A DNA stretch of 64,000 bases from Bacteroidales bacterium (GTDB lineage Bacteria > Bacteroidota > Bacteroidia > Bacteroidales > JAFGHD01). The stretch covers positions 33,181 to 97,180 of the forward strand of contig JAFGHD010000020.1 of NCBI GenBank assembly GCA_016939365.1. Reading direction: 5' to 3'. Position 1 is the stretch's first letter; each line of letters opens with the position of its first letter. The notes below the pieces were generated by a model that saw only the letters and a list, made by a program, of their open reading frames with translations, did not search any database and had not been told where the DNA came from. A program made the translations under genes and the position numbers. Shown here piece by piece: positions 9,354-24,581 of the stretch.

Positions 9354-12300
9354 TCAAAACCACCTGACAAGGTTCAGATCATGCCTGTAAGGTAACAGCG
9401 GAGATTTAGGTGCAATCCGGAAGGCAAACTCAAATATACCGGAAGCTGTCATCGGGAAATCACACTCGTAGACAGCATACGGATTTTTCTTTTCCCGCAG
9501 ATCAAGTTCGTTTGTATACCAGGGACAATCCACATGATCATTGATCCGGCGTCCGAATATCACCTCTGCCCTGATTTCCTCAGGGGGTATTTCTCCGGTT
9601 TTCAGGACCAATGTGGCTTTGAAATTCTGCCCCATGGTCAGGGAACTCTGAATATTTCCGGGGATATCAATTGAAACCAGTTCAATGTCATCCCAGAACC
9701 GCCGGATCTTTCTTTTCCAGCCCGTGATCTCGCGAGCCAGGGTATAATCGTTGTGGATCAGTTTGGTGTTTCGCTGGCGGAGTTTATGGTAATATTGCCC
9801 GGTGTAATCATCCAGCATCCGCTTCATTGTGAAATGAGGTGCGATCTGGGCCATGCTGTTCCTTACAAATTTGAGCCAGCCACCCGGAATACCCTTATTG
9901 TTCCTGGTGAAAAAGAGGGGTATGATTTCCTCCTGAAGCAGGTTAAGGATTGTCTCTGCGTCAAGTTCGTCCTGATATTGTTGATTTGCATAAATCCTGG
10001 CTTCATTCAGGGCCCATCCTGCGTTTTCTTTGAAACCCTCCGACCACCAACCATCCAGGACGCTCAGGTTCAGCACTCCGTTCATCACAGCCTTCTGCCC
10101 GCTGGTTCCTGAGGCCTCCAGCGGTCTGGTCGGTGTATTCAGCCAGACGTCAACGCCTGCGATGAGATTTCGGGCCAGGTGCATATCATAATTCTCGAGG
10201 AAAATGACCTTTCCGAGAAAGCGTGGATTCTTCGAAATGGTCACGATCCTCTGGATCAGATCCTGACCCGGCTTGTCGTTGGGATGTGCCTTTCCTGCAA
10301 AGATGAAACGCACCGGGCGCTCGGGGTCATTGACGATCTCTTCCAGCCGGTCGGTGTTCCCAAAAAGGAGATGTGCCCTTTTATAGGTGGCAAATCTCCT
10401 GGCAAAACCAATATAAAGTGCCTCTTCGCTGATCTCATTCAGGGTTTCGATAATGATCCTCGGATTTTCCTGCCGTTTGGTCAGGTCGGAGTTGATCTTC
10501 TTTTTCAGAAAGCGGGTCATGACCGATTTGGAAGCCTTCCGTTCTTCCCAGAGTTCCTCATCTCCGATCTGAAACACCCGTTCCCAATGTTCCGGACTAT
10601 TGACCTGGCTGACGAAATCCTTCCCGAAATACTTCCTGTGGAGTTCCTGCCAATTGCGGGCTGTCCAGGTTCCGTAATGCACACCGTTGGTAACATGACC
10701 GATATGGAGTTCGCCAGGGAAATAGCCCGGGTACAGATCCCTGAAAATCTCACGGGTCACCCTTTCGTGGATTTTGCTGACCCCGTTTGCCTCCTGACAC
10801 AGCTTCATGGCCAGTATGCTCATTGAAAACCGTCCGTCCTGCGCACTTCCATCGATCTGTCCCATGTTCATGAACTCCCTCCAGGATATCCGCAGCCTGT
10901 CGGCATAGTGGGGAATATATGTACGAAGGATGTCTTCACTGAAGGTGTCATGGCCTGCCGGCACCGGCGTATGCGTTGTGAAAAGGGAAGATGACCGGAC
11001 TACCTCAAGAGCCACCTCAAAGGGAAGGTTGTCATACTGAACATACATCCGCAGTCTTTCAAGCCCGGCAAAGGAGGCATGTCCTTCGTTCAGATGGAGT
11101 ATATCGGGTTTCACGCCCATTGCGTCCAGAAGCCTCATACCCCCGACACCGAGCAACAGCTCCTGCTTGAAACGGTTCTCCCAGTCGCCGCCATAAAGAT
11201 GGTAAGTAATGGCCCGGTCTTCGGCCGTGTTTTCATCAATATCCGTATCCAGTAGGTAAAGCGGTATCCTCCCCACATCAACCCGCCATGCACGGGCTGT
11301 AAGAGACCTCCCTGGAAATACAATACTGATCTTCAGTGGATTGCCCTTGTCATCGTTGACCTCCTGAATGGGAAGTGTGGAGAACTTCTGCGGGATATAC
11401 AAGTTGAGCTGATCTCCATGAAGGGAGATGCTTTGCTGGAAATATCCATACCTGTAAAGGATACCGACACCGATCATGTGTACATTGGAATCACTTGCTT
11501 CCTTGAGGAAATCCCCGGCCAGAACACCGAGACCTCCCGAATAGATGGTTAGTGATTCATGCAGGCCATACTCCATGGAGAAATATGCGATCCGTGGATC
11601 ATTTCCAGGAAAATCCTGAGATATATATTCGTTGAATTGTTCCAGCACAGTGGCCAGTTTCTTCTGGAATCCCACATTTTTCTCAAGGTTTGCCCATTGT
11701 ACCGAGTCGAGCGAATCCAGCAGTGAGAGTGGGTTTTGCCTGTGCTTTTCCCATAAATCCACATCAATCAACCGGAAAAGCTCTTCCGCCTGGGGATTCC
11801 ATGACCACCACAGGTTCATGGCCAGTTTATGCAGAGCTTCCATCGATTCCGGATAGCTGGGACGGATATTTATCTGGCGCCACTCCGGCTCAAACCTTGG
11901 TAATCTGGGGGAAACGGGAGGAACGGCCTTTTCTGCAGCTTTCTTTGTAACGAACAGATCCTTCCTTCCTTCCACTTTTTCAAGGGCTACACTGTAGGCT
12001 TCCCTGTAATGATCATAAAGGGTATTCCATGTGATCCCGGCTGCAATTTCCAGTGCCTCCATTCTGGTGCTTTCCAGCATGTCCGGTGAATATGCGGCGA
12101 ACTGAAGAATGGCTTCGGCTATATCCCCTACGGCCTTCTCATCATTTCCATCCATCCGGTCAAGAATAGTCACGGCATTCGTTTTTCCCGGGAATTCACC
12201 GGCGACCCACTTGCCGAAGCCAGCCAGGGAGGTAGTTATGGTAGGTATCCCGAAAGCCACGCTTTCCATAGGTGTATAACCCCAGGGCTCGTAGTAGGAG

Positions 12301-13595
12301 GGAAACACGGTCTGGTCGAATCCCAGAAGGAAATGATAATAGGGTATGTTGAAGATGCCATCGTCTCCATTCAGGTATGCCGGGATGAAAAAAGCATTTA
12401 CAGCATCACCGGCTTTGTTGTGAATTCCTTTCTGCAAAAGGTTGCTGATGATCTGGTCTGAGGCGGGATCCATCAGCAAATGAGTCAAATAGATACTACC
12501 ACTCTGGGAATCAGGACTATTTTTGGGCTCCTCACTGAGAATATCCATTCTTGGTCCGGTCTGATATGCAGGTATGGCGAAGAAAACGAGAATCTGCCGT
12601 TCGGTCTTCCTGTCCCTGACTTTGGCCAGTGCATCAATCAGGAGGTCGATACCCTTGTTCCTGTATTCATAACGGCCGCTGGTGAGAACCAGCCAGGCAT
12701 TCCGGCCGATTTTACGGCCCAGGACAGCTTCGGCAACACGAATGATCCGGTTACGGATATCCTCCCGGCTGGTCTGGCGGGAAACGGGATCCGGGATGAG
12801 GCCGGGATCAAACCCGTTCGGGGTGATGATATCAGGCGATCGTTGCAGAAAGCGGCGACATTCGGAAGCGGTCACCTCACTCACAGTAGCAAAGGAATCA
12901 GCCTCCTGTGATGCGGTCTTTTCCAATGAGTGTTTGGAAACCACTCCAAAGCGCCTTATCAGCGACTCCAGATCAAGTTTATCGGGCTCATGGTAGAGGG
13001 GCAGCCCGTTACCTGCAATGGCACGGCCGGCAACTGTGGCATGGGTCGTGAAGACTGTGCCTACCTGAGGCACTTTATCCTTCAGGTAAAGCACCCCGGC
13101 GCCCGTCATCCACTCATGAAAATGAGCAATGACACGGTCTGAAGCTGACAAATAGTATTCATAAAAACTTTCGATCACCTTGCCTGCCGCATACCCAAAA
13201 AGGGCCGGTTCCACATAATCCCATTGTCCCTGGAGCGAGTCCAGTTTGTAAAGCTCCCAGAATTTGGAAAATATCCTGTCTTTTTCAGGGAAAAAGGGAG
13301 TAAAATCAACCAGGATGGCGATGGGTTTTCCCGGCACATTCCATCTTCCGACTCTCAGCCTCAGGCCTTCCTGCTCGGCCTTACTCCTCCATCCCGGCAA
13401 GAGAGACCTGTCCTCTGAGAAATCCGGGTGTTCCGGTGTTTCCTTCCAGACATCCGGGCCGATCATGAAATACCTCTCCTTAAGGTCTTTGACAACGATC
13501 GGTGCCTTGCTGGAAATTACGGTATAAATTCCACCGATCTTGTTGCACACTTCCCAACTGATCTCAAATAGATAATCCGGTCTGTTCAATTTCAT
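9354..13595 (-). CDS. fused GT3-type glycogen synthase and GT35 alpha-glucan phosphorylase
   Basis: N-terminal YLFEISWEVCNKIGGIYTVISSKAPIVV resembles the eukaryote-type GT3 glycogen synthase start; C-terminal half has NEGHASFAGLERLR, TTHTPVPAGHDTF and LEASGTSGQKAVMNGVLNLSVLDGWW (PLP-lysine region). ATG at 13595 preferred over the upstream start at 13655. Confidence 0.9.
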   Translation of the reverse strand: MKLNRPDYLFEISWEVCNKIGGIYTVISSKAPIVVKDLKERYFMIGPDVWKETPEHPDFSEDRSLLPGWRSKAEQEGLRLRVGRWNVPGKPIAILVDFTPFFPEKDRIFSKFWELYKLDSLQGQWDYVEPALFGYAAGKVIESFYEYYLSASDRVIAHFHEWMTGAGVLYLKDKVPQVGTVFTTHATVAGRAIAGNGLPLYHEPDKLDLESLIRRFGVVSKHSLEKTASQEADSFATVSEVTASECRRFLQRSPDIITPNGFDPGLIPDPVSRQTSREDIRNRIIRVAEAVLGRKIGRNAWLVLTSGRYEYRNKGIDLLIDALAKVRDRKTERQILVFFAIPAYQTGPRMDILSEEPKNSPDSQSGSIYLTHLLMDPASDQIISNLLQKGIHNKAGDAVNAFFIPAYLNGDDGIFNIPYYHFLLGFDQTVFPSYYEPWGYTPMESVAFGIPTITTSLAGFGKWVAGEFPGKTNAVTILDRMDGNDEKAVGDIAEAILQFAAYSPDMLESTRMEALEIAAGITWNTLYDHYREAYSVALEKVEGRKDLFVTKKAAEKAVPPVSPRLPRFEPEWRQINIRPSYPESMEALHKLAMNLWWSWNPQAEELFRLIDVDLWEKHRQNPLSLLDSLDSVQWANLEKNVGFQKKLATVLEQFNEYISQDFPGNDPRIAYFSMEYGLHESLTIYSGGLGVLAGDFLKEASDSNVHMIGVGILYRYGYFQQSISLHGDQLNLYIPQKFSTLPIQEVNDDKGNPLKISIVFPGRSLTARAWRVDVGRIPLYLLDTDIDENTAEDRAITYHLYGGDWENRFKQELLLGVGGMRLLDAMGVKPDILHLNEGHASFAGLERLRMYVQYDNLPFEVALEVVRSSSLFTTHTPVPAGHDTFSEDILRTYIPHYADRLRISWREFMNMGQIDGSAQDGRFSMSILAMKLCQEANGVSKIHERVTREIFRDLYPGYFPGELHIGHVTNGVHYGTWTARNWQELHRKYFGKDFVSQVNSPEHWERVFQIGDEELWEERKASKSVMTRFLKKKINSDLTKRQENPRIIIETLNEISEEALYIGFARRFATYKRAHLLFGNTDRLEEIVNDPERPVRFIFAGKAHPNDKPGQDLIQRIVTISKNPRFLGKVIFLENYDMHLARNLIAGVDVWLNTPTRPLEASGTSGQKAVMNGVLNLSVLDGWWSEGFKENAGWALNEARIYANQQYQDELDAETILNLLQEEIIPLFFTRNNKGIPGGWLKFVRNSMAQIAPHFTMKRMLDDYTGQYYHKLRQRNTKLIHNDYTLAREITGWKRKIRRFWDDIELVSIDIPGNIQSSLTMGQNFKATLVLKTGEIPPEEIRAEVIFGRRINDHVDCPWYTNELDLREKKNPYAVYECDFPMTASGIFEFAFRIAPKSPLLPYRHDLNLVRWF

Positions 13596-13622
13596 CGTTC
13601 CTGTTTCATCATTTAGTCCGGG

Positions 13623-13630
13623 CAAAAATA
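13623..13630 (-). promoter_or_regulatory. Bacteroidota -7-like box TATTTTTG upstream of the synthase-phosphorylase gene
   Basis: Matches TAnnTTTG on the minus strand, 28 bp upstream of the ATG; no clear -33 TTTG. Confidence 0.4.
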
Positions 13631-13654
13631 TCCCTTTGATTTTCTTTACGGACA

Positions 13655-13678
13655 CATTTCTTCTTCATATAAGAAATG
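13655..13678. repeat. inverted repeat CATTTCTT-N8-AAGAAATG, possible operator
   Basis: 8-bp perfect arms just upstream of the candidate -7 box. Confidence 0.5.
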
Positions 13679-13790
13679 CGCCATCAATACCACCTGTTTA
13701 TAAGCCATGCAAATCCAAAAGGAGACTCTTATGTCCATAATCAGCATTGATCACCGCCGGAAACGGGAAGCCGGTGAGTCCGGCGGGGTT

Positions 13791-15323
13791 TCAGGAAATA
13801 TCAGAAAGGATAGCTGATAACCTTGACAAAGCCTGTCTGATCCGTGTACGTCCTGCCTCGGCGGCGTCTTCCGACATCTCTTTCACCTTCTTTTTCTTCC
13901 CTTCACTGATATATTTCATCACCCGTTCCGTTGCAGCCGGATCGATTTCCCTGATAAGGACAGATAAATCGAACGGGTCAGCCTTGCTGATAAACTTCCT
14001 GAGGTCCTTGACTTTCAGCCCCAACAAATCAGGGTATGCAACCGTTTTTCCGGGTCTCATCACAGCGGAGACTTTGACGGATGGTGCGGTTGATCTGACG
14101 CGGATTCCGGAAGCCGGACCCGGCATGTCTTCCTGGACGGCTTCATCCAGTCTGATCATAAAATCAGACAGGACATTCATGTAATTGATAAAAGCTTCGT
14201 AGGGTGTCGCGTAAGGGTTGAAGTACCTGTGGACATCGCCGTCGGAGAACCATTTGGTACACATGTAGTAAAAATGGTCGCTCGCCTGAAGATTGTTCCA
14301 GTCGTTCAGTAGCCGGCCGTCCCTGCACTGACGGACTTGATCTGAAATGCTGTAGAGTCTCGCGAATGCCTCATCCTGCATCTCATTGCCCAGCCAGGCG
14401 GTCAGGTCCCGTTCCTCGTCGGCCCAGGATATCGGGTGCGGAACGGATATTTCAGCAACAGGCCGGTGCATGGAGGACAATTCAGCGGGAGTCCGGAAAG
14501 CAAAATCAGAATCCTTTAGCAACATTCCGGGTAGGGATTCCATGAACTGGAAAATACCCGAATCAGCCGGCTGATGCTCTCCCAGGGTCTCGTAATCAAT
14601 GAAAATATTTACGATTTCCTGATCCTGATCCAGGTTGTTGATCCATCCCGCATATTTTTCTGCAGTGAGCGGCCATTCATTCCAGCTTTTGTCTGAAAAC
14701 CGGAAGGCAATATCATCACTCAACCTGAAATTCTTGAGGAGCAGGTTCAGCCCTGTCCTGGTCGGATTACGATACAGATAATTCGGGCTTTTCCATCCGA
14801 GTATGTGTTTAGCCCCCTCAGTAAGCAAAGTATTATATCCCATATCATACACCATCTCTCCGATCTGATCGGAGTAAACCAGCTCGGTATTCCTGAAAGT
14901 AGCAGGCCTGATGCCAAAAAGCTCATTCATTTTGTGGCTGTGGGCCTCCACCTGGCGGATGAATTCCTCTTTGCTGACCAGGGATGCAAGCGAATGGGCA
15001 TAGGTCTCGGTGAGAAATTCCACAGATCCGGTAGCAGCAAGTTCCTTAAAGCTATCGAGCACAGCAGGGGCAAACATCTCAAACTGATCGACCGCCAGAC
15101 CCGAAATGGAGTAACTGATCCGGAACCGGTCCCCGTATTTTCCGATCAGGTTGAGCATCATTCTGTTGGCAGGCAGATAACATTTGTCCGCGATCCTTTG
15201 CATGATAGACCGGTTGAGGAAATCATCGTAATAATAATGATCTGAACCAATGTCGAAAAACCGGTAGGTTCTCAGCCTGAAAGGCTGGTGTACCTGAAAG
15301 TACAGACAGATTGATCTCATCAA
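13791..15323 (-). CDS. glycoside hydrolase family 57 (alpha-amylase-like)
   Basis: CLYFQVHQPFRLRTYRFFDIG, NTELVYSDQIGEMVYDMGYNTLLTEG and FIDYETLGEHQ match GH57 motifs; overlaps the upstream gene by 4 bp. Confidence 0.9.
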   Translation of the reverse strand: MMRSICLYFQVHQPFRLRTYRFFDIGSDHYYYDDFLNRSIMQRIADKCYLPANRMMLNLIGKYGDRFRISYSISGLAVDQFEMFAPAVLDSFKELAATGSVEFLTETYAHSLASLVSKEEFIRQVEAHSHKMNELFGIRPATFRNTELVYSDQIGEMVYDMGYNTLLTEGAKHILGWKSPNYLYRNPTRTGLNLLLKNFRLSDDIAFRFSDKSWNEWPLTAEKYAGWINNLDQDQEIVNIFIDYETLGEHQPADSGIFQFMESLPGMLLKDSDFAFRTPAELSSMHRPVAEISVPHPISWADEERDLTAWLGNEMQDEAFARLYSISDQVRQCRDGRLLNDWNNLQASDHFYYMCTKWFSDGDVHRYFNPYATPYEAFINYMNVLSDFMIRLDEAVQEDMPGPASGIRVRSTAPSVKVSAVMRPGKTVAYPDLLGLKVKDLRKFISKADPFDLSVLIREIDPAATERVMKYISEGKKKKVKEMSEDAAEAGRTRIRQALSRLSAILSDIS

Positions 15324-16624
15324 ATATGATTTTCTTTGCTATTGGCAACAACATCCCTGTACACTTCCACAATATGGGATGCAGCATTTTCCCACTTCAG
15401 ATGATCAACTTCAGCCCGGCCATACCGAACAAACATCTTGGAGAGTGCCGGATAATGGATCAGGCCATAAATGGCATCTGCCATACCATTGACATCCCAG
15501 AAATCCACCTTGATGGCATGCTTGAGTACTTCCGCCACGCCGGATTGCTTGGAGACAACAACGGGCACATTGGTTCTCATAGCTTCCAGGGGAACCAGCC
15601 CGAAGGGTTCTGATACGGATGGCATGACAAAGACATCGCTCATGGCGAACATCCTGTCCACATCATCTCCCCTCAGAAAACCTGCGAAGTGGAACCTGTC
15701 GGCTATTTTCAGCTGTGCTACGCGCCGTACCATTTTATACAGCAAATCCCCTGAACCGGCCATAACAAAACGGATATTACGGTCTCTGGTGAGCACCTTA
15801 TGTGCTGCTTCAATAAAATACTCAGGTCCTTTCTGGAAAGTGATCCTGCCCAGAAATGAAACAATATACTCCCTGACGTTTTTTTGTGTGTTGAGCAATT
15901 CAGGTTTCTCAATTGTTTCAATGGCATTATGTACAGTGACCACCTTATCGGGATTGATACCATACCGGTCGATCACAATACGGCGGGTAAGGTGGCTGAC
16001 TGCGATGACACAGTCGGCGGCCTCCATTCCGCGACGTTCAATATCATAGACCAGGGAGTTGATATTTTCACCAGATCTGTCAAATTCCGTTGCATGAATA
16101 TGGACAACCAGGGGTTTTCCGCTCATTCTTTTCGCGGCAATACCGGCATAATAAGTCAACCAGTCGTGGGAATGGATAATGTCGAACTCATGCTGGGCGG
16201 CAATGGCACCACCTACCAGTGCATACCTTGACACCTCCTCCATCAGGTTCTGTCCGTATTTACCTGAAAAGTGGTATTTTGCTGAGAACACCCGGTTCCG
16301 GAGTTCTTTTTCTTCCCTGACGGTTTCGCGGTATATTCGTTCAAATTCCTCCGGGCCCAGATAGGGAACCAGGTTGGCTCCCACTTCGATATAGCTGAGG
16401 TTGTGTGCCAGCTGGCGGAATTCCTGGTCATAGATGTTCACAGCTACATCACTTGCATTGATGAGACGGACTGCCTGCTGGTCTTCATCGCCGAAGGCTC
16501 TGGGAACCACAAAAAGAACCTGAACGCCGTGCTTCATCAGGCCTTTGGTCATCCCATAGCATGCGGTGCCCAGCCCCCCTGAGATATGGGGTGGAAACTC
16601 CCAGCCGAACATCAGTACCCTCAT
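15320..16624 (-). CDS. GT4 family glycosyltransferase
   Basis: MFGWEFPPHISGGLGTACYGMTKGL; HSHDWLTYYAG; SFLGRITFQKGPEYFIEAA; DVFVMPSVSEPFGLVPLEAM. Confidence 0.9.
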   Translation of the reverse strand: MRVLMFGWEFPPHISGGLGTACYGMTKGLMKHGVQVLFVVPRAFGDEDQQAVRLINASDVAVNIYDQEFRQLAHNLSYIEVGANLVPYLGPEEFERIYRETVREEKELRNRVFSAKYHFSGKYGQNLMEEVSRYALVGGAIAAQHEFDIIHSHDWLTYYAGIAAKRMSGKPLVVHIHATEFDRSGENINSLVYDIERRGMEAADCVIAVSHLTRRIVIDRYGINPDKVVTVHNAIETIEKPELLNTQKNVREYIVSFLGRITFQKGPEYFIEAAHKVLTRDRNIRFVMAGSGDLLYKMVRRVAQLKIADRFHFAGFLRGDDVDRMFAMSDVFVMPSVSEPFGLVPLEAMRTNVPVVVSKQSGVAEVLKHAIKVDFWDVNGMADAIYGLIHYPALSKMFVRYGRAEVDHLKWENAASHIVEVYRDVVANSKENHI

Positions 16625-18582
16625 GATGCAACAGTGTGTTTACAAAGGATATCAATGAGATATTTCATTCTTAAAAGCTCGGCCACACTCCATGCCTGTG
16701 AGATTGAGCCCCTTGGTCTGTGGGGAGGGTCTCCATCATAAATCTCAGAAATACTGCCCACTCCATGTTCAGCCAGCTCATCTTCAAAACCATAGTAAAG
16801 CTTTCTAATGAGCGGCAATCCTGATCTCCCGTGAAGGCGGAGATATCCTTCGGCAAAATGGCCCAACATCCATGGAAAAACGGATCCCTGATGATAGGCT
16901 GTATCACGCTGGGCGGAACTTCCTTCATATATGCCCCTGTATTCCGGATGATCGGGGGCGAGAGATCTTAATCCCCTGATTGTCAATAGCTCACTTTCAA
17001 TATGATCGAACACCTTTTTCCTGACATCCTCAGGAACAGGGGAATAAAGCAGGGATGCGGTAAAAATCTGGTTTGGTCTGAAACTCCAGTCCGGCTTCCC
17101 GTTATACACTACATCGGCCAGGTATCCTTTCTCCTCATTCCAAAAAACCTTCATGAATGATGCTGGAATACTCCGTGCCAGCTCCAGCCAATCTGAGACA
17201 GCCCCCTGATACTTTGAATCCCTGAAAAGATCCAGGGTAAACATGATGGCATGATACCATAGGGCATTGAGATCAACAGCCAGGCCAGTGCGCGGTGTAA
17301 CGGGCATCCCTTCCACCACGGCATTCATCCATGTCACGGGTTTCCCCTCTATGCCTGCACCCAAAAGTCCATCCTCCTGCATATGGATCTGGTGTGAAGT
17401 CCCCTTTCGGTATTCCGAGAGTATCATCCGGATCAGTTCCCCGTAACGCTTCCTGATCCTTTCACGGTCACCCGTGAACTGCACGTATTGCTGCAAAGCC
17501 CAGATGAACCACAGTGATGTGTCTGCGGACTCGTAAAATGATTCATTCCCCTTTCTGTAATCAGGGAAAAAAGGGCCCTTCATGCGACGGACCATGGTGT
17601 CGATAACAGAGAAGAAAGTCAGGTGGTCATTGCGGGTGAGCATAAGGCCGGGAATTGAGATGAATGTGTCGCGGCCGATCACATCAAACCAGGGGTAGCC
17701 GGCAATGATTTCAGTATCTCCGTTGCGCCTGATGACAAACTGGTCTCCCGAATTATGAAGGCAGTGCTCAAAACTGTCACGGGGGGTCCTCGATCTGAGT
17801 TCCTTACTGAAAAGCCTTTTCAGCGTGGAGGGATCCTTGCCGGAAATCCCGGCTGAAAACATCACACTCTCCCCCTTTTTTATGTCCAGCTCGAAGTATC
17901 CGGGGACCCACAGATCTTCCTTGAAATCATATCCCCGTTCCTCCTCCCGGTCATATTCCAGGCCGAAATACCAGTCCGGGGCATGGTGATACTCCACCTG
18001 TTTGGAGAACTGCATGTAAACGGGTGTGTAGTTAGGGTACAAGCTCATCATGATCCCGTTGGGAATGGAATCATACCCGGTACGCACATCGGAATTTGCG
18101 CTGCTCAGCATGTGGCGCTGTCTGAATGCCAGGAAAGGCCTTAAGCGGAGTTTTGTGGGAGAATGGGCTTCTACCAAACTGTACCTGATCAGGATTCGGT
18201 CGTCAATGGAGGAAAAAACCCGCTCGACCGTCAGTACCACCCCGCCAACGGTGTAGGTCAGATGCGGAATCGGATCCGATCTGAAATCCCTGATGTATTT
18301 GTGCCCTTTCGGATTGTACAGGTTATTCCGGTACTTGTGTATGCCGAGGTTGAATTCAGCATTACGCTGTATTACAGTAACATCCAGAGAAGAAAGCAAA
18401 ACATGAAGCTCGTGATCGATCTCCGGTTGACGAACGATCAGTAATCCATGATACTTCCTTGTATTACAGCCAACAATCGTCGTTGTCGCAAACGACCCCA
18501 TACGGTTTGACCTGATAAGCTCCTTCGAGAGTGAATACTCAAGATTGACCAGTTCATTCTTATCAAATTCAATATATCCCAT
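16621..18582 (-). CDS. amylo-alpha-1,6-glucosidase (glycogen debranching enzyme, GH133-like)
   Basis: FATTTIVGCNTRKYHGLLI; AGYPWFDVIGRDTFISIPGLML; NALWYHAI; AYHQGSVFPWMLGHFAEGYLR. Confidence 0.92.
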   Translation of the reverse strand: MGYIEFDKNELVNLEYSLSKELIRSNRMGSFATTTIVGCNTRKYHGLLIVRQPEIDHELHVLLSSLDVTVIQRNAEFNLGIHKYRNNLYNPKGHKYIRDFRSDPIPHLTYTVGGVVLTVERVFSSIDDRILIRYSLVEAHSPTKLRLRPFLAFRQRHMLSSANSDVRTGYDSIPNGIMMSLYPNYTPVYMQFSKQVEYHHAPDWYFGLEYDREEERGYDFKEDLWVPGYFELDIKKGESVMFSAGISGKDPSTLKRLFSKELRSRTPRDSFEHCLHNSGDQFVIRRNGDTEIIAGYPWFDVIGRDTFISIPGLMLTRNDHLTFFSVIDTMVRRMKGPFFPDYRKGNESFYESADTSLWFIWALQQYVQFTGDRERIRKRYGELIRMILSEYRKGTSHQIHMQEDGLLGAGIEGKPVTWMNAVVEGMPVTPRTGLAVDLNALWYHAIMFTLDLFRDSKYQGAVSDWLELARSIPASFMKVFWNEEKGYLADVVYNGKPDWSFRPNQIFTASLLYSPVPEDVRKKVFDHIESELLTIRGLRSLAPDHPEYRGIYEGSSAQRDTAYHQGSVFPWMLGHFAEGYLRLHGRSGLPLIRKLYYGFEDELAEHGVGSISEIYDGDPPHRPRGSISQAWSVAELLRMKYLIDILCKHTVAS

Positions 18583-18952: not shown

Positions 18953-19156
18953 TAATATAGGTATCCAATTCAATATGACAAAACATCAAACCATCCGCAC
19001 ACGGAAAAGTTACCGACCGTAACGATCAAATTCCATGCAAAACTTTAATCCCACCTTCTTTCCGTTACTTACTCCTTCGAACTGCATGAAATATTCCATT
19101 CCTGGGAACAGGTAAGACCAAATTGAAACCTTGTCAGGAAAGCCTTATTTTTTTAT

Positions 19157-19164
19157 TATATTTG
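19157..19164 (+). promoter_or_regulatory. candidate -7 box TATATTTG upstream of the TonB receptor operon
   Basis: Matches TAnnTTTG 25 bp before the ATG at 19190; TTG at 19131-19133 is a loose -33 candidate with 23-bp spacing. Confidence 0.45.
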
Positions 19165-19189
19165 CAAGGTATTTCAATTACCATAGGTA

Positions 19190-21553
19190 ATGAACAGGGG
19201 AGCATGCATAGCCCTGATATTGTTTTCATTGTCATATTACGCCTGCGCGCAAAGCGGTCTGATCATTACCGGAAAGATACTCGACGGGGATGAGTTGCAT
19301 CCTGTCCCCGGGGCGGAAATCATCCTGAACGAAAAATCTGTCGGAACACTAAGTGATGCCTATGGAAACTTCCGTCTGGACGGACTTTCATCCGGCACTA
19401 TCACATTAACGGTCAGGCATATCGGGTATAAGGTATTGCGAAAGAAGGTTGAGCTGGCGGATGAAAACATCGAGTACCTTACACTTTTGCTGACTCCTGA
19501 TATTAAAACATTATCTGAATTCGTACTCACTGATAAGGCACCCGGCCGAAGTCGTATACCGGGCAAGGCCATTCCGGTATCCCGCATGAGTCCTCTGACT
19601 GACGGAACCGTGCAGCATGATCTGGGAGATTATATGCGAAATGCCGCCAACATCTCCGGCATCAGGAAAGGTGCCATCGGCATTGATCCGGTGATCAGGG
19701 GATTCAAATACAGCCAGTTGAACGTCCAGATAAACGGAGGTCACAAGATCGAAGGGGGGTGCCCCAACCGGATGGACCCGGCAACTTCACATGTTGAAAT
19801 GGAAGACCTTGAATCTGTATCTGTGATAAAGGGGCCTTACGCATTGAGATTCGGCCCTTCGCTCGGTGGTGTCATCTCCCTGGAAACGCATATTCCGGTC
19901 ACGGCCAGTGATTTTTATACATCGGTTCATACCTTGCTGGGTTACGAAAGTAACTGGAACGGTTTCCGGGAACACCTGCGTGTTACTGCCGGCGGCAGGG
20001 GATACTTCCTCTCCATTACCGGGGGAAGGAAGGAATATGATGATTACAATGCGGGAACCGGAGATTTAATCCCCTCTTCATTCACAAGATACAACTTCAA
20101 ATTACAGGCGGGAGCCCTGCTGTCCGATCATCAGAAGCTGGTTCTGAGTGCAGAAGAGCAAAATGGCTATCATGTTGCATTTCCCGCCTTGCCCATGGAT
20201 GAACGGCGCGACCACACCCGCCTTGCCTCAATGGACTATTCTTACCTTCCGGAGGAAGGCCGGATCCGGTCAATCATTGCAAAAGCGTATTATTCCGTTA
20301 TCAATCATCTAATGGACAATAAAGAAAGACCCTCTTCGGATACCGTGACGGCGGTATCAGAGATCGATGCGGTGAACAGGGGAGTCCGTATGGAAGCAAG
20401 CCTGCATGCCGGTCAGGGAAATCTGACCCTGGGAGTGGATATTGAGAATATTCTGAAGGACGGTCAGAGGACCAAGTCGATGATCCTGCAACCTGCATTA
20501 CCGGTAAAAAGGGAAAGTCTTTGGAATAGAGGCGTTATTGTCAATACAGGTTTCTTCACGGATTATTCCCTGATGCTCGGAAGTTATGAAGTCACACTGG
20601 CCGCACGGCTGGATATAAACCATGCGGAATCAGGAGCACTTGAGGTCTTTGGCGGTAACCAGCAGGAGTTGTACAGGTTCGGTAAAGACTCGATCCGGTC
20701 GGATTTTCTGAATTTTAGTGTGAGTGCCGGTGTCCATAGGATGCTGAATGAGTATGTCTCGTTTTCACTTGCACTGGGAAGAGGTGTCAGAAGCCCCGAT
20801 ATGACAGAACGATTTATTATCCTTCTTCCGATCGGTTACGATCCCTTTGATTATCTGGGGAATCCTGCCCTTAAACCTGAAACCAACAACCAGATTGACA
20901 TCGGCCTGAAATATCAGCAGCCGCAATGGGGTGAAGCCGGTTTGACCTGCTTCTACTCCCTTGTGGAAAATTTTATTACAGGACAAATCATTCCACCCTC
21001 CGTTCAGAAGCCTCTGTCCAAAGACGTTGTGGGAGTAAAAAAATTCCACAACGGGGGCCTTGCCAGGCTAAGGGGATTCGAAATGGAATATACCTCCCCT
21101 GGCAGCCTGCTGATCTCGGGAGGTATCCGCGCATCTTTCACATACGGTACTATCGCTGAAGCGGTGCAATATACCACCGACGGACAGGGTGATCCCACAG
21201 GACAGGAGGTGATCGCGAATGATGCACTGTCTGAAATACCACCCTTTGAAGCAAGTGGGTTCATTCAGGGGAACATCGCAGGAGGCAAACTGAAACCCAA
21301 AATCTCCTGCAGGCTGGTAGCTCCCCAGAATCATGTTTCAGAAGTACAGTATGAAAAAAAGACACCCGGCTTCATCGTGGCGAACATCGCCTTCATCGCC
21401 AGGCTTAACGGGCATATCGAAATAAACGGGGGGGTGAACAATCTGTTCGATGCATCCTATTATGAACATCTGAACCGGAACATCATAGGTTCGGAATTGC
21501 CGTTATATGAACCCGGCCGTGTTTTTTATATCAACCTGGTTTTTTCATTATGA
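19190..21553 (+). CDS. TonB-dependent receptor, predicted copper-related (OprC-like CPNRM plug motif)
   Basis: Signal peptide, carboxypeptidase-like domain, plug with INGGHKIEGGCPNRMDPATSHVEMEDLESVSVIKGP, C-terminal beta-barrel ending ...GRVFYINLVFSL. Confidence 0.88.
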   Translation: MNRGACIALILFSLSYYACAQSGLIITGKILDGDELHPVPGAEIILNEKSVGTLSDAYGNFRLDGLSSGTITLTVRHIGYKVLRKKVELADENIEYLTLLLTPDIKTLSEFVLTDKAPGRSRIPGKAIPVSRMSPLTDGTVQHDLGDYMRNAANISGIRKGAIGIDPVIRGFKYSQLNVQINGGHKIEGGCPNRMDPATSHVEMEDLESVSVIKGPYALRFGPSLGGVISLETHIPVTASDFYTSVHTLLGYESNWNGFREHLRVTAGGRGYFLSITGGRKEYDDYNAGTGDLIPSSFTRYNFKLQAGALLSDHQKLVLSAEEQNGYHVAFPALPMDERRDHTRLASMDYSYLPEEGRIRSIIAKAYYSVINHLMDNKERPSSDTVTAVSEIDAVNRGVRMEASLHAGQGNLTLGVDIENILKDGQRTKSMILQPALPVKRESLWNRGVIVNTGFFTDYSLMLGSYEVTLAARLDINHAESGALEVFGGNQQELYRFGKDSIRSDFLNFSVSAGVHRMLNEYVSFSLALGRGVRSPDMTERFIILLPIGYDPFDYLGNPALKPETNNQIDIGLKYQQPQWGEAGLTCFYSLVENFITGQIIPPSVQKPLSKDVVGVKKFHNGGLARLRGFEMEYTSPGSLLISGGIRASFTYGTIAEAVQYTTDGQGDPTGQEVIANDALSEIPPFEASGFIQGNIAGGKLKPKISCRLVAPQNHVSEVQYEKKTPGFIVANIAFIARLNGHIEINGGVNNLFDASYYEHLNRNIIGSELPLYEPGRVFYINLVFSL

Positions 21554-21567
21554 CAGTAATACACCAC

Positions 21568-21933
21568 ATGAAAACCCTGATCATACTGAATATGATCATC
21601 ATCCTGGCTGCAATGTTGGGGTGCACCCGTTATGACGAAAAATTGGCGGTCGAGTATAGTATCTCCAAATCCTATTCGGATGTCAATGTTCAATTCCGTG
21701 ATGGGGATGGTGTTTTACGCGACACGATAATTCATTTGCAGAGCATTGAGGATCAATGGCAATACCATTTTGAGGCCAGACGGGGAGATATAGTGTATGT
21801 ATCGGCCATCTACTTCGATTCCTCATCCACTGTCACGGCAGGAATCCTATTGGAAGGCAAACTGTTCAAACAGGGAAGCAGCAATAAGGAACCCGGAAAA
21901 TACGTTACTGTATCCGGGACGGTACCCTATTAA
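21568..21933 (+). CDS. small predicted lipoprotein
   Basis: MKTLIILNMIIILAAMLGC; alternative start at 21550 overlaps the receptor stop (ATGA). Confidence 0.65.
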   Translation: MKTLIILNMIIILAAMLGCTRYDEKLAVEYSISKSYSDVNVQFRDGDGVLRDTIIHLQSIEDQWQYHFEARRGDIVYVSAIYFDSSSTVTAGILLEGKLFKQGSSNKEPGKYVTVSGTVPY

Positions 21934-21941
21934 ACAACCAG

Positions 21942-22751
21942 ATGGAACGTCTCATTAAATTATTATTCATAGCCGCAGCGGGTATCGCCCTTCTGGCAGG
22001 TTGCAAGAAAGAGACAAAAATCACCGAAGTGAGCAGCGGCAAGATCATCATTTGTTTTGATCACCGGGTGGATGACCTGCCCATGGTCCGTGACTCCCTG
22101 ATGTACACCAATGAGGCGGGCAATCCATACATGATCAATGAAATTCAATATTTCATTTCAGACTTCACCCTTTATGGTGCCGGCGGAAGCCAGGTGGTCA
22201 TCGATGATTGGAAAGACATCCATTATGTGGATACGGATATTCCCGAAACATGGACATGGGAAGTCTATGACGAGATACCCCAGGGATGGTACGATTCTGT
22301 TTCCTTCACCTTCGGCATCACTGCCGAAAAAAATAAATCGTTCATGTATGTCAATCCTCCCGAAAGGGATATGTTCTGGCCGGAATATCTGGGAGGGGGA
22401 TACCACTACCTGAAACTGAACGGCAAATGGCTGCCGGCAGGTCAGGCATACCAGACCAGGCCCTTTGATTTCCACCTCGGTATCGGTCAGATATACTTCA
22501 GCTATCCCGACTCCATCACCGGATATGTGCAAAACTATTTCACGGTATGTCCTCCGGGTTCTGCCCTTCAGGTGATCAATGGCCAATCCACGAAATTCAA
22601 CATCGTCATGAATATTGAAAACTGGTTCAAGGAGCCCCATATTTATGATCATGACCAATGGGGCGGTTATATCATGCAGAACCAGGATGCCATGGCTTTG
22701 GCAAGGGAAAACGGACACAATGTATTCACTTTGGAACTGTGCAAAAAATGA
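21942..22751 (+). CDS. MbnP-like lipoprotein
   Basis: Lipobox LLAGC; NEIQYFISDFTLYG, DMFWPEYLGGGYHYLKLNGKW and FNIVMNIENWFKEP resemble the MbnP family; located next to an MbnH-like gene. Confidence 0.75.
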   Translation: MERLIKLLFIAAAGIALLAGCKKETKITEVSSGKIIICFDHRVDDLPMVRDSLMYTNEAGNPYMINEIQYFISDFTLYGAGGSQVVIDDWKDIHYVDTDIPETWTWEVYDEIPQGWYDSVSFTFGITAEKNKSFMYVNPPERDMFWPEYLGGGYHYLKLNGKWLPAGQAYQTRPFDFHLGIGQIYFSYPDSITGYVQNYFTVCPPGSALQVINGQSTKFNIVMNIENWFKEPHIYDHDQWGGYIMQNQDAMALARENGHNVFTLELCKK

Positions 22752-23404
22752 ATACCTACAGGCTGCTGTCCGGCATGGTTATTCTGTTATGGGGTTTCCT
22801 TCCAGGGTGCAGGGAAAAAGATGACATTCCTCCTGTGATCACATTGAAGGGAAGCGGTTACATGACCACCGAACTCAACCAGCCATTTTCCGATCCCGGT
22901 GTTACTGCAACAGATGATTCGGATGGAGATATTACGTCAAGGGTATACGTTGAAAGTGATCTGGACATCGACCGGGTGGGGATTTACAATCATGTTTACC
23001 GGGTGACTGATCAATCCGGTAATACAGCCAATCCGTTGGTCCGGGAAATTGAGGTGGTTAACGGATCGAGGCAATACGAAGGCAACTATAACGGAACAGA
23101 TAAAGGAATGTTCCCGGATGCGGACAGCCTGGCCTTCAGCACATATCTACGGTTTGATTCCACACTGAATCACAGAATGATCTTCTCCGGTTTCGGAGGG
23201 CAATCCGGCTGGGTTGTGATGGCAGATATCTCCGGGGGATTGATGATCATTCCCTTTCAGGTAATCCAGGATTCTCTGGGTGGGTTCAATATCCAGGGGG
23301 CGGGCACGGTCAGCGACACCCTGATTGAAATGAATTATACACGTGAAACAGAAACAGAAATTCTTCTGAGAAATGCCGTTTTCAACAAAATACCGAAAGG
23401 ATAA
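22748..23404 (+). CDS. lipoprotein with DUF5011-like immunoglobulin-type domain
   Basis: PPVITLKGSGYMTTELNQPFSDPGVTATDDSDGDITSRV...GIYNHVYRVTDQSGNTA; lipobox LPGC; ATG overlaps the MbnP-like stop by 4 bp. Confidence 0.75.
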   Translation: MNTYRLLSGMVILLWGFLPGCREKDDIPPVITLKGSGYMTTELNQPFSDPGVTATDDSDGDITSRVYVESDLDIDRVGIYNHVYRVTDQSGNTANPLVREIEVVNGSRQYEGNYNGTDKGMFPDADSLAFSTYLRFDSTLNHRMIFSGFGGQSGWVVMADISGGLMIIPFQVIQDSLGGFNIQGAGTVSDTLIEMNYTRETETEILLRNAVFNKIPKG

Positions 23405-23417
23405 ATATGGCCTTCAA

Positions 23418-24581
23418 ATGCCAGGTTTGTTCCCGGTAGCGGTCATTGTCGCTTCATTGATTTTCAGTTGCAGCAAAAAGGATGACGGCACGGAACCAGA
23501 ACAGCCCTATCAACCACATCCATACTCCCTGGAAATACCCTATGGATTTCCCACCCAGTTGAATATTCCTTCAGACAACCCGCTCACAGAAGAAGGGGTG
23601 GCATTGGGAAGATACCTTTTTTATGACGGCAGGCTGGGGGGACGCGACCACCCCGACTCCCTGATGAGCTGTGCCACATGCCATCTTCAGCAAAATGCTT
23701 TCGAATGTGGTACGGATCACCCGGTATATACCAACGGATTTACCCATGGCATCAACGGTAAACCGACTCCCCATGTAATGCTGCCGTTGTTCAATCTCGT
23801 CTGGAACAGTAACGGTTATTTCTGGAATGGCCTTGTCGGTCCCGACAATCCAGACGAGCATTACCGGAATATCGAGGATATAGTATGGATGGGTGTAGTG
23901 GTCGAGCACGAAATGGACAGCGATACGAACCGTGTCAGGGAACTCATACAGTCCATACCGGGCTATCCCGACCTGTTTGAAAAAGCGTTCGGGTCGCGCC
24001 AGGTAACGATGCGGAATATCGGAAGGGCCGTTGCACAATTCATCAGGACGATCACATCGGCCGAATCAAAATTCGACAGGTATCTGCGCGGGGAAGAACA
24101 GCTCTCTCCGCAGGAGTTGAATGGATTTGTTCTTTTTACCACTGAAGAGGGGGCAGACTGTTTCCACTGCCATGGCGGCTCGGGAAATCCCCTTTTTACG
24201 ACCAACAAGTTTTACAATAACGGCAAGGATTCATTGTTTACCGGACCGTATGAGGATCCAAGGGACCGGTATCATGTCACCGGCGACCCCATGGACCTGG
24301 GCGCATACAAAGCCCCAACCCTGAGAAATATCATCTTTACTGCACCCTATATGCATGACGGCCGTTTCGCTACACTAGACTCTGTAATCCATTTTTACAA
24401 TACCAGTCTGGTCTGGTCACCCTATATCGATCCTCTGATGCATCATATTGCCAATGGCGGAACACAGATGATTCCCCAGGAAGTCAGCGATCTGAAAGCC
24501 TTCATTCTTTCACTTACCGATTATCAGATCCTCAGCGACCCCGACCTGGGTCCTCCTGAGAAGTTTCCCGACGAGGAGTAG
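23418..24581 (+). CDS. MbnH-like di-heme cytochrome c peroxidase (MauG superfamily)
   Basis: Two CXXCH motifs (CATCH, CFHCH), KAPTLRNIIFTAPYMHDGRFATLDSVIHFYN signature and lipobox FSC; alternative upstream start at 23373. Confidence 0.88.
   Translation: MPGLFPVAVIVASLIFSCSKKDDGTEPEQPYQPHPYSLEIPYGFPTQLNIPSDNPLTEEGVALGRYLFYDGRLGGRDHPDSLMSCATCHLQQNAFECGTDHPVYTNGFTHGINGKPTPHVMLPLFNLVWNSNGYFWNGLVGPDNPDEHYRNIEDIVWMGVVVEHEMDSDTNRVRELIQSIPGYPDLFEKAFGSRQVTMRNIGRAVAQFIRTITSAESKFDRYLRGEEQLSPQELNGFVLFTTEEGADCFHCHGGSGNPLFTTNKFYNNGKDSLFTGPYEDPRDRYHVTGDPMDLGAYKAPTLRNIIFTAPYMHDGRFATLDSVIHFYNTSLVWSPYIDPLMHHIANGGTQMIPQEVSDLKAFILSLTDYQILSDPDLGPPEKFPDEE

Follow-up and report, generated by a model that had tools for sequence, protein, structure and literature searches.

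A five-gene Bacteroidales operon uniting an OprC-like receptor with an MbnP–MbnH pair, and its predicted role in copper acquisition

In MbnP, the first tryptophan of a conserved WxW motif is, according to Manesis and colleagues (PNAS 2021), reportedly oxidised to kynurenine by the di-heme enzyme MbnH, while a methionine and a histidine are said to bind Cu(I). Pairs of MbnP and MbnH have been known beyond the methanobactin producers since 2013 (PMC3621798). In MopE and CorA, the copper site consists of a kynurenine and two histidines, and the gene for a di-heme partner is adjacent (PMC3912023). The outer-membrane receptor OprC binds copper through C143 and M147 of its plug and H323 and M325 of its barrel (PMC8610252), and operons combining OprC-type receptors with MbnPH-like genes are already on record (PMC9426467). 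Copper import outside the methanotrophs and a few Proteobacteria is poorly known, as is the role of MbnP–MbnH pairs that do not belong to methanobactin operons. Here we describe a five-gene operon of an uncultured Bacteroidales bacterium (GenBank assembly GCA_016939365.1) that lies at positions 19190-24581 of a 64,000-nucleotide stretch of contig JAFGHD010000020.1, which is referred to below as the window.

The operon encodes an OprC-like receptor, a 127-residue lipoprotein, an MbnP-fold lipoprotein of 269 residues, an Ig-like lipoprotein and an MbnH-type di-heme enzyme. Its kind is already known, because both shared OprC/MbnPH operons and the wider occurrence of MbnP/MbnH pairs have been reported. 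The MbnP protein belongs to a group without the WxW motif; this group and the small lipoprotein family linked to it may be new, as no description was found in the literature searched, although the key structural papers lay outside that search and an earlier mention is possible.

We interpret the operon as a unit for the uptake of ionic copper, in which Trp146 of the MbnP protein would be converted to kynurenine and a Met-His-His site surrounding it would let the protein store Cu(I) or pass it on, and we give this interpretation a probability of about 0.62. With its OprC-type CxxxM-HxM site, the TonB-dependent receptor would import ionic copper across the outer membrane. The MbnP-fold lipoprotein, presumably exposed at the cell surface, would act as the Cu(I) holder, with Met144, His178 and a group-specific His155 surrounding Trp146, which the di-heme enzyme would oxidise to kynurenine. 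The loaded protein might then give its copper to the receptor or, in the other direction, take copper from it. The metal would supply periplasmic cuproenzymes, such as a cytochrome oxidase that is encoded elsewhere in the genome. The 127-residue lipoprotein would partner the receptor, and the Ig-like lipoprotein would serve as an optional accessory.

The operon and its receptor

The five co-directional, tightly packed genes that a first, sequence-only reading had described were all recovered at that place on the forward strand, with open reading frames of 787, 127, 269, 218 and 402 amino acids (Table 1). The overlaps and short gaps that it noted were measured as 4 bp overlaps at the junctions of the receptor and 127-residue genes and of the MbnP and Ig-like genes, and as a gap of 8 bp between the 127-residue and MbnP genes. 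Lipobox-like cysteines do occur in all four downstream proteins, as MLGC, LAGC, LPGC and IFSC. The family search that it proposed was run, and its calls for the receptor, the MbnP-like protein and the di-heme protein proved correct, as did that of a DUF5011-like protein. Pfam matches within the operon are MbnP (1.4e-22), CCP_MauG (1.6e-35) and Bact_surface_Ig-like (1e-16), and these matches, together with a gene order that is conserved in many related genomes, argue that the arrangement is not due to chance.

The receptor finds its best NCBIfam match in TIGR01778 (TonB-copper; 1.9e-62) with 212 bits, which is short of the curated cut-off of 472.45, and it is therefore described as OprC-like and not filed as a member of that family. 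Its best match in the PDB is OprC itself (6fok, 2.7e-38). C191, M195, H373 and M375 of the receptor align with C143, M147, H323 and M325 of OprC, so that the predicted ligand set is complete. The sequence-only reading had recognised an OprC-like receptor from the CPNRM motif of the plug, and in this it was right; the HxM half of the site in the barrel had been overlooked. Among receptor homologues that cover the respective positions, the CxxxM pair is kept in 20 of 20 and the histidine and methionine of the HxM pair in 21 of 21.

A receptor in this setting might alternatively take up a copper chelate or a metal-free organic ligand and carry a chalkophore as MbnT does, and it is the case that MbnP/MbnH pairs adjoin methanobactin receptors (PMC3621798). 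This we consider very improbable, as all the plug and barrel ligands with which OprC binds bare copper are kept and the genome has no MbnB homologue. Absences from the genome refer to family searches of the assembly, which is in 197 contigs; the search for MbnB (PF05114) gave no match, which extends to the whole assembly the earlier remark that the window contains no methanobactin genes.

Table 1. Features of the copper operon, in positions of the window
Feature	Position	Strand	Basis
TATATTTG, match to the Bacteroidota -7 promoter element TAnnTTTG	19157..19164	+	Pattern match, ~25 bp before the first gene
OprC-like TonB-dependent copper receptor, 787 aa, with N-terminal CarboxypepD_reg domain	19190..21553	+	TIGR01778 and OprC (6fok) match
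CPNRM, residues 191-195, CxxxM half of predicted OprC-type copper site	19760..19774	+	Aligned to C143/M147 of OprC
HLM, residues 373-375, HxM half of predicted OprC-type copper site	20306..20314	+	Aligned to H323/M325 of OprC
127-aa lipoprotein, new family, predicted MmpS-like beta-sandwich	21550..21933	+	AlphaFold (AF2), Foldseek, linkage to MbnP
MbnP-fold lipoprotein of the WxW-less group, 269 aa	21942..22751	+	PF20243, AF2 model, Foldseek
M144-F145-W146, kept Met ligand and Trp predicted to become kynurenine	22371..22379	+	M and W in 57/57
H155, group-specific invariant His	22404..22406	+	His in 57/57, never in 28 WxW proteins
H178, His common to both MbnP groups	22473..22475	+	57/57 and 28/28
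W228, group-specific invariant Trp	22623..22625	+	57/57 in group; not conserved in WxW proteins
Ig-like (PF16403, DUF5011-type) lipoprotein, 218 aa, optional	22748..23404	+	Pfam 1e-16
MbnH-type di-heme MauG-superfamily lipoprotein, likely start ATG 23418	23373..24581	+	TIGR04039, 6e1c
CATCH, heme 1 attachment	23670..23684	+	Both Cys and His invariant in 32 homologues
CFHCH, heme 2 attachment	24159..24173	+	Invariant in 32 homologues
Tyr of VIHFYN, predicted MauG/MbnH-type axial ligand	24396..24398	+	Invariant in 32 homologues

An MbnP protein without WxW and its di-heme partner

The 269-residue protein matches the Pfam family MbnP (PF20243) at 1.4e-22, with 80.9 bits against a cut-off of 27. 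Its structure, the prediction of which had been proposed for the MbnP–MbnH pair and was run here for the MbnP-like protein, was modelled with AF2 from 35 sequences at a pLDDT of 90.5 and shows the MbnP fold. With this model, significant Foldseek matches were limited to 7l6g, whose six chains score between 6.1e-8 and 3.6e-6; an unrelated match follows at an E-value of 0.16. No relative was retrieved when PDB sequences were queried with the protein or its profile; the fold search alone produced one. The NCBIfam model for the WxW group, TIGR04052 (MbnP_like_WxW), does not match the protein at an E-value of 1 and scores a close homologue at no more than 18.4 bits; canonical WxW proteins of Bacteroidota, used as controls, match it at 9e-16 and 5e-15 and are likewise below its cut-off. 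The protein thus belongs by its sequence to the Pfam MbnP family, yet lacks the motif by which the WxW group is defined.

The nature of this departure is clear from 85 further MbnP proteins, which were collected from 45 loci of a GTDB set, 12 loci of a 196-genome sample of the window's order and a phylum sample that gave 28. Outside the order, WxW is present in 28 of 28 proteins, the methionine two residues before it in 27 and the later histidine in all. Within the order, the motif reads M-x-W-P in all 57 proteins with coverage of the site, two residues are inserted and the second tryptophan is missing. W146 is aligned to the first tryptophan of WxW by MAFFT and, independently, by profile-profile alignment, and M144 is kept throughout the group as well as in those 27 WxW proteins. 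Met144 and His178 are presumably the equivalents of the Cu(I) ligands in the MbnP structure. The position of H155 is occupied by Ile, Lys or Val in WxW proteins, and Met223, like W228, is invariant in the WxW-less group only. In a maximum-likelihood tree the two MbnP groups are split with 100/99 support, the position of the root being left open and long branches being flagged. A second WTW of the protein, at residues 104-106, was rejected as the true WxW: of 58 group members no more than 13 have tryptophan at residue 104, and WxW proteins have it in neither of the two columns. Three loci (L048, L050 and L051), whose genomes have two MbnP matches each, form a deeply diverging side branch of the group, in which MFWP is replaced by MEWP.

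The sequence-only reading of this protein as MbnP-like is therefore upheld by Pfam family and fold and by the retained Trp146, methionine and histidine, and it has to be qualified for the absent second tryptophan and the extra, clade-specific histidine. Because of these two differences the chemistry of MbnP is not simply transferable to it. One consequence might be a copper system that manages without kynurenine, in which Cu(I) would be bound by Met144, His155 and His178, perhaps with Met223 or Met245, the extra histidine would replace the function of kynurenine, and MbnH would be a peroxidase or act on another tryptophan such as W228. The loss of the second tryptophan fits such a system, as do His155, Met223 and Trp228, which never vary within the group and are missing from WxW proteins or differ among them. 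We nonetheless judge it unlikely, since Trp146 itself is invariant (57/57) and the MbnH-type gene stays beside the MbnP gene in most loci, and it is these two facts that suggest that the modification is still made.

The uptake interpretation thus retains a kynurenine at Trp146, and the di-heme enzyme that would form it is MbnH-type in both family and structure. TIGR04039 (MbnH) is its best NCBIfam match (9.8e-56, 189 bits), ahead of MauG at 121 and SAM_quin_mod at 84, and the MbnH structure 6e1c is its best PDB match (4.4e-40); the profile of the enzyme gives 199 bits to 6e1c and 146 bits to a peroxidase. The two CXXCH motifs seen in the last gene are both in place, the one at heme 2 being CFHCH in the window's group, where most of the enzymes paired with WxW proteins carry other residues. 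At the axial position its tyrosine aligns with a tyrosine in 6e1c and with a methionine in the peroxidase 2c1u, so that the earlier designation as MbnH-like, and not as an ordinary peroxidase, is sustained. By its score, however, the protein is MbnH-type without being a certified member of TIGR04039. No other CCP_MauG protein, and hence no second di-heme peroxidase able to share its work, was found in the genome by family search.

The WxW-less group amounts to a natural mutant series. If Trp146 still becomes kynurenine, the second tryptophan is dispensable; otherwise, the added histidine may reveal a way for a copper site to manage without the modification. A more far-reaching idea, which is possible but on balance doubtful, is that the whole group has a rebuilt kynurenine copper site, in which the second tryptophan was lost, a histidine was added beside the Met-Trp-His core and the distant W228 takes over the radical relay to the di-heme enzyme. 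Such a site would be a hybrid of MbnP (Met and His) and MopE/CorA (two His), working with a new MmpS-like receptor lipoprotein in copper uptake that requires no chalkophore.

Accessory lipoproteins, distribution and genomic setting

The 127-residue lipoprotein has no match in Pfam or NCBIfam. Its AF2 model (pLDDT 91.5) resembles, according to Foldseek, MmpS5 (PDB 8em5; E 8.3e-5, TM 0.69/0.77, 13% identity). In a 197-genome sample of the phylum the family was found only in the window's own genome. Strong matches occur in 21 genomes of the order, every one of which also encodes MbnP; the distance to MbnP is at most 2 kb for 20 of the 21, and the remaining match is on another contig. The family was thus found only in the window's order, tied to MbnP-bearing genomes, and the upstream receptor, this lipoprotein and MbnP form a stable trio. 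Besides the lipobox cysteine, only Y, W, G, K and S residues are invariant in it, and neither histidine nor methionine is conserved. A metal-binding role was accordingly rejected, and the absence of metal ligands makes a role as receptor partner most likely, analogous to that of lipoproteins associated with TonB receptors in Bacteroidota. In two cases (G047:C364 and G145:C52) a CPNRMD receptor has a divergent lipoprotein of this type nearby and MbnP is on another contig, and the pair of receptor and lipoprotein may occur independently of MbnP.

The Ig-like lipoprotein, whose gene starts at ATG 22748, has homologues in 12 related loci and was not found in others that share the same core, and so is an optional component. 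Of the two added lipoproteins in the sequence-only reading, both of which are present, the smaller recurs as a part of the system and is not incidental. For the di-heme gene, whose reading frame opens at 23373, the in-frame ATG at 23418 is the likelier start, because a normal 18-residue lipoprotein signal results. The TAnnTTTG element upstream of the operon is the sole match to that pattern in 18991-19400; as no -33 TTG partner was found at the standard spacing, it is a weak candidate for the promoter of the operon, for which copper-dependent regulation is presumed. Divergent from the operon, on the reverse strand upstream (9354-18582), is a glycogen/alpha-glucan cluster with a fused glycogen synthase-phosphorylase (1433 aa), a GH57 protein, a GT4 glycosyltransferase and a debranching enzyme.

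The survey of gene neighbourhoods that had been suggested earlier was carried out, and the order receptor, 127-residue lipoprotein, MbnP, optional Ig-like lipoprotein and MbnH recurs across Bacteroidales loci, with the core set in dozens of genomes. A second genome of the same genus has genes of matching sizes in the same order. Fisher tests, which ignore kinship, associate MbnP in the 196-genome sample of the order with the presence of a CPNRMD receptor (p 1e-13) and of the 127-residue family (p 1e-14). Subject to the same limit, MbnP is enriched with A-type COX1 (26/51 versus 26/145, p 1.3e-5), and NosZ does not track it (p 0.16).

A copper-dependent cytochrome oxidase is a plausible user of the metal in this genome, where COX1 (1e-158), a CuA-type COX2, a COX3-like protein and a UbiA-family CtaB are encoded in one cluster. 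This cluster (L093, on G000:C53, 4496-12614), in which COX2 has the CuA motif and a C-terminal CXXCH, is adjoined by genes for a 194-residue cytochrome c-like protein and a DUF4920 protein. A 265-residue reading frame near it has the CPxxC motif of SCO chaperones and no Pfam match at 1e-5. Nitrous oxide reductase was rejected as a user here, as the weak TIGR04246 match falls in the CuA subunit of the oxidase.

Several points weigh against copper uptake by the proposed route. The second tryptophan is missing in the MbnP protein (W146-P-E) and in its 57 relatives; the receptor (212 against 472.45 bits) and the di-heme protein (189 against 362.85 bits) score below curated cut-offs, as does, for TIGR04039, an MbnH that adjoins a canonical WxW MbnP (197.8 bits); the association tests disregard kinship; and 19 of the 51 MbnP-bearing genomes lack both COX1 and NosZ, so that the user of the copper is not always an oxidase. 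These 19 genomes would also suit a system of copper defence or sensing, in which surplus copper is sequestered at the surface and MbnH detoxifies peroxide, with no role in uptake, as would the loci in which MbnP and MbnH occur without a detected receptor (for example L037-L044). That the first gene of the operon encodes an OprC-type importer with its predicted site intact makes such a system quite improbable, and copper repression of CorA and MopE, two functional relatives, fits acquisition (PMC3912023). In L042 and L043, from Bacteroidales metagenome-assembled genomes (one of sheep reticulum), an MbnP-MbnH pair has neither receptor nor 127-residue lipoprotein detected nearby; should these organisms be strictly anaerobic, it would be puzzling what oxidant the di-heme enzyme uses. 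For acquisition, the presence in one cluster of the pair and an importer with an intact site, in a genome with a copper oxidase and no MbnB, makes the proposed role directly testable.

Comparison with known systems

The receptor has the same CxxxM-HxM ligand set as OprC of Pseudomonas aeruginosa (6fok; TIGR01778), from which it differs in its score below the family cut-off, its additional N-terminal CarboxypepD_reg domain and its place in an MbnP-MbnH operon. With mycobacterial MmpS5 (8em5) the 127-residue lipoprotein has in common its predicted fold alone, and its gene adjoins that of a TonB receptor and not that of an RND (MmpL) transporter. The di-heme enzyme shares with MbnH of Methylosinus trichosporium (6e1c; TIGR04039), its best NCBIfam and PDB match, the two CXXCH motifs and the axial-position tyrosine; it differs in being below the cut-off and a lipoprotein.

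H155, H178 and W146 would resemble the two histidines and tryptophan of MopE from Methylococcus and CorA from Methylomicrobium, a likeness of ligand type only; no such entry appeared in the PDB sequence searches or among the Foldseek matches listed. In comparison with MbnP of M. trichosporium OB3b (7l6g; PF20243; TIGR04052), the window protein has no second WxW tryptophan and no TIGR04052 match, carries a two-residue insertion and the extra invariant H155, M223 and W228, and comes from a genome without MbnB, whereas the fold, the Pfam family, the Met-x-Trp, the downstream histidine and the adjacent MbnH-type gene are shared between the two.

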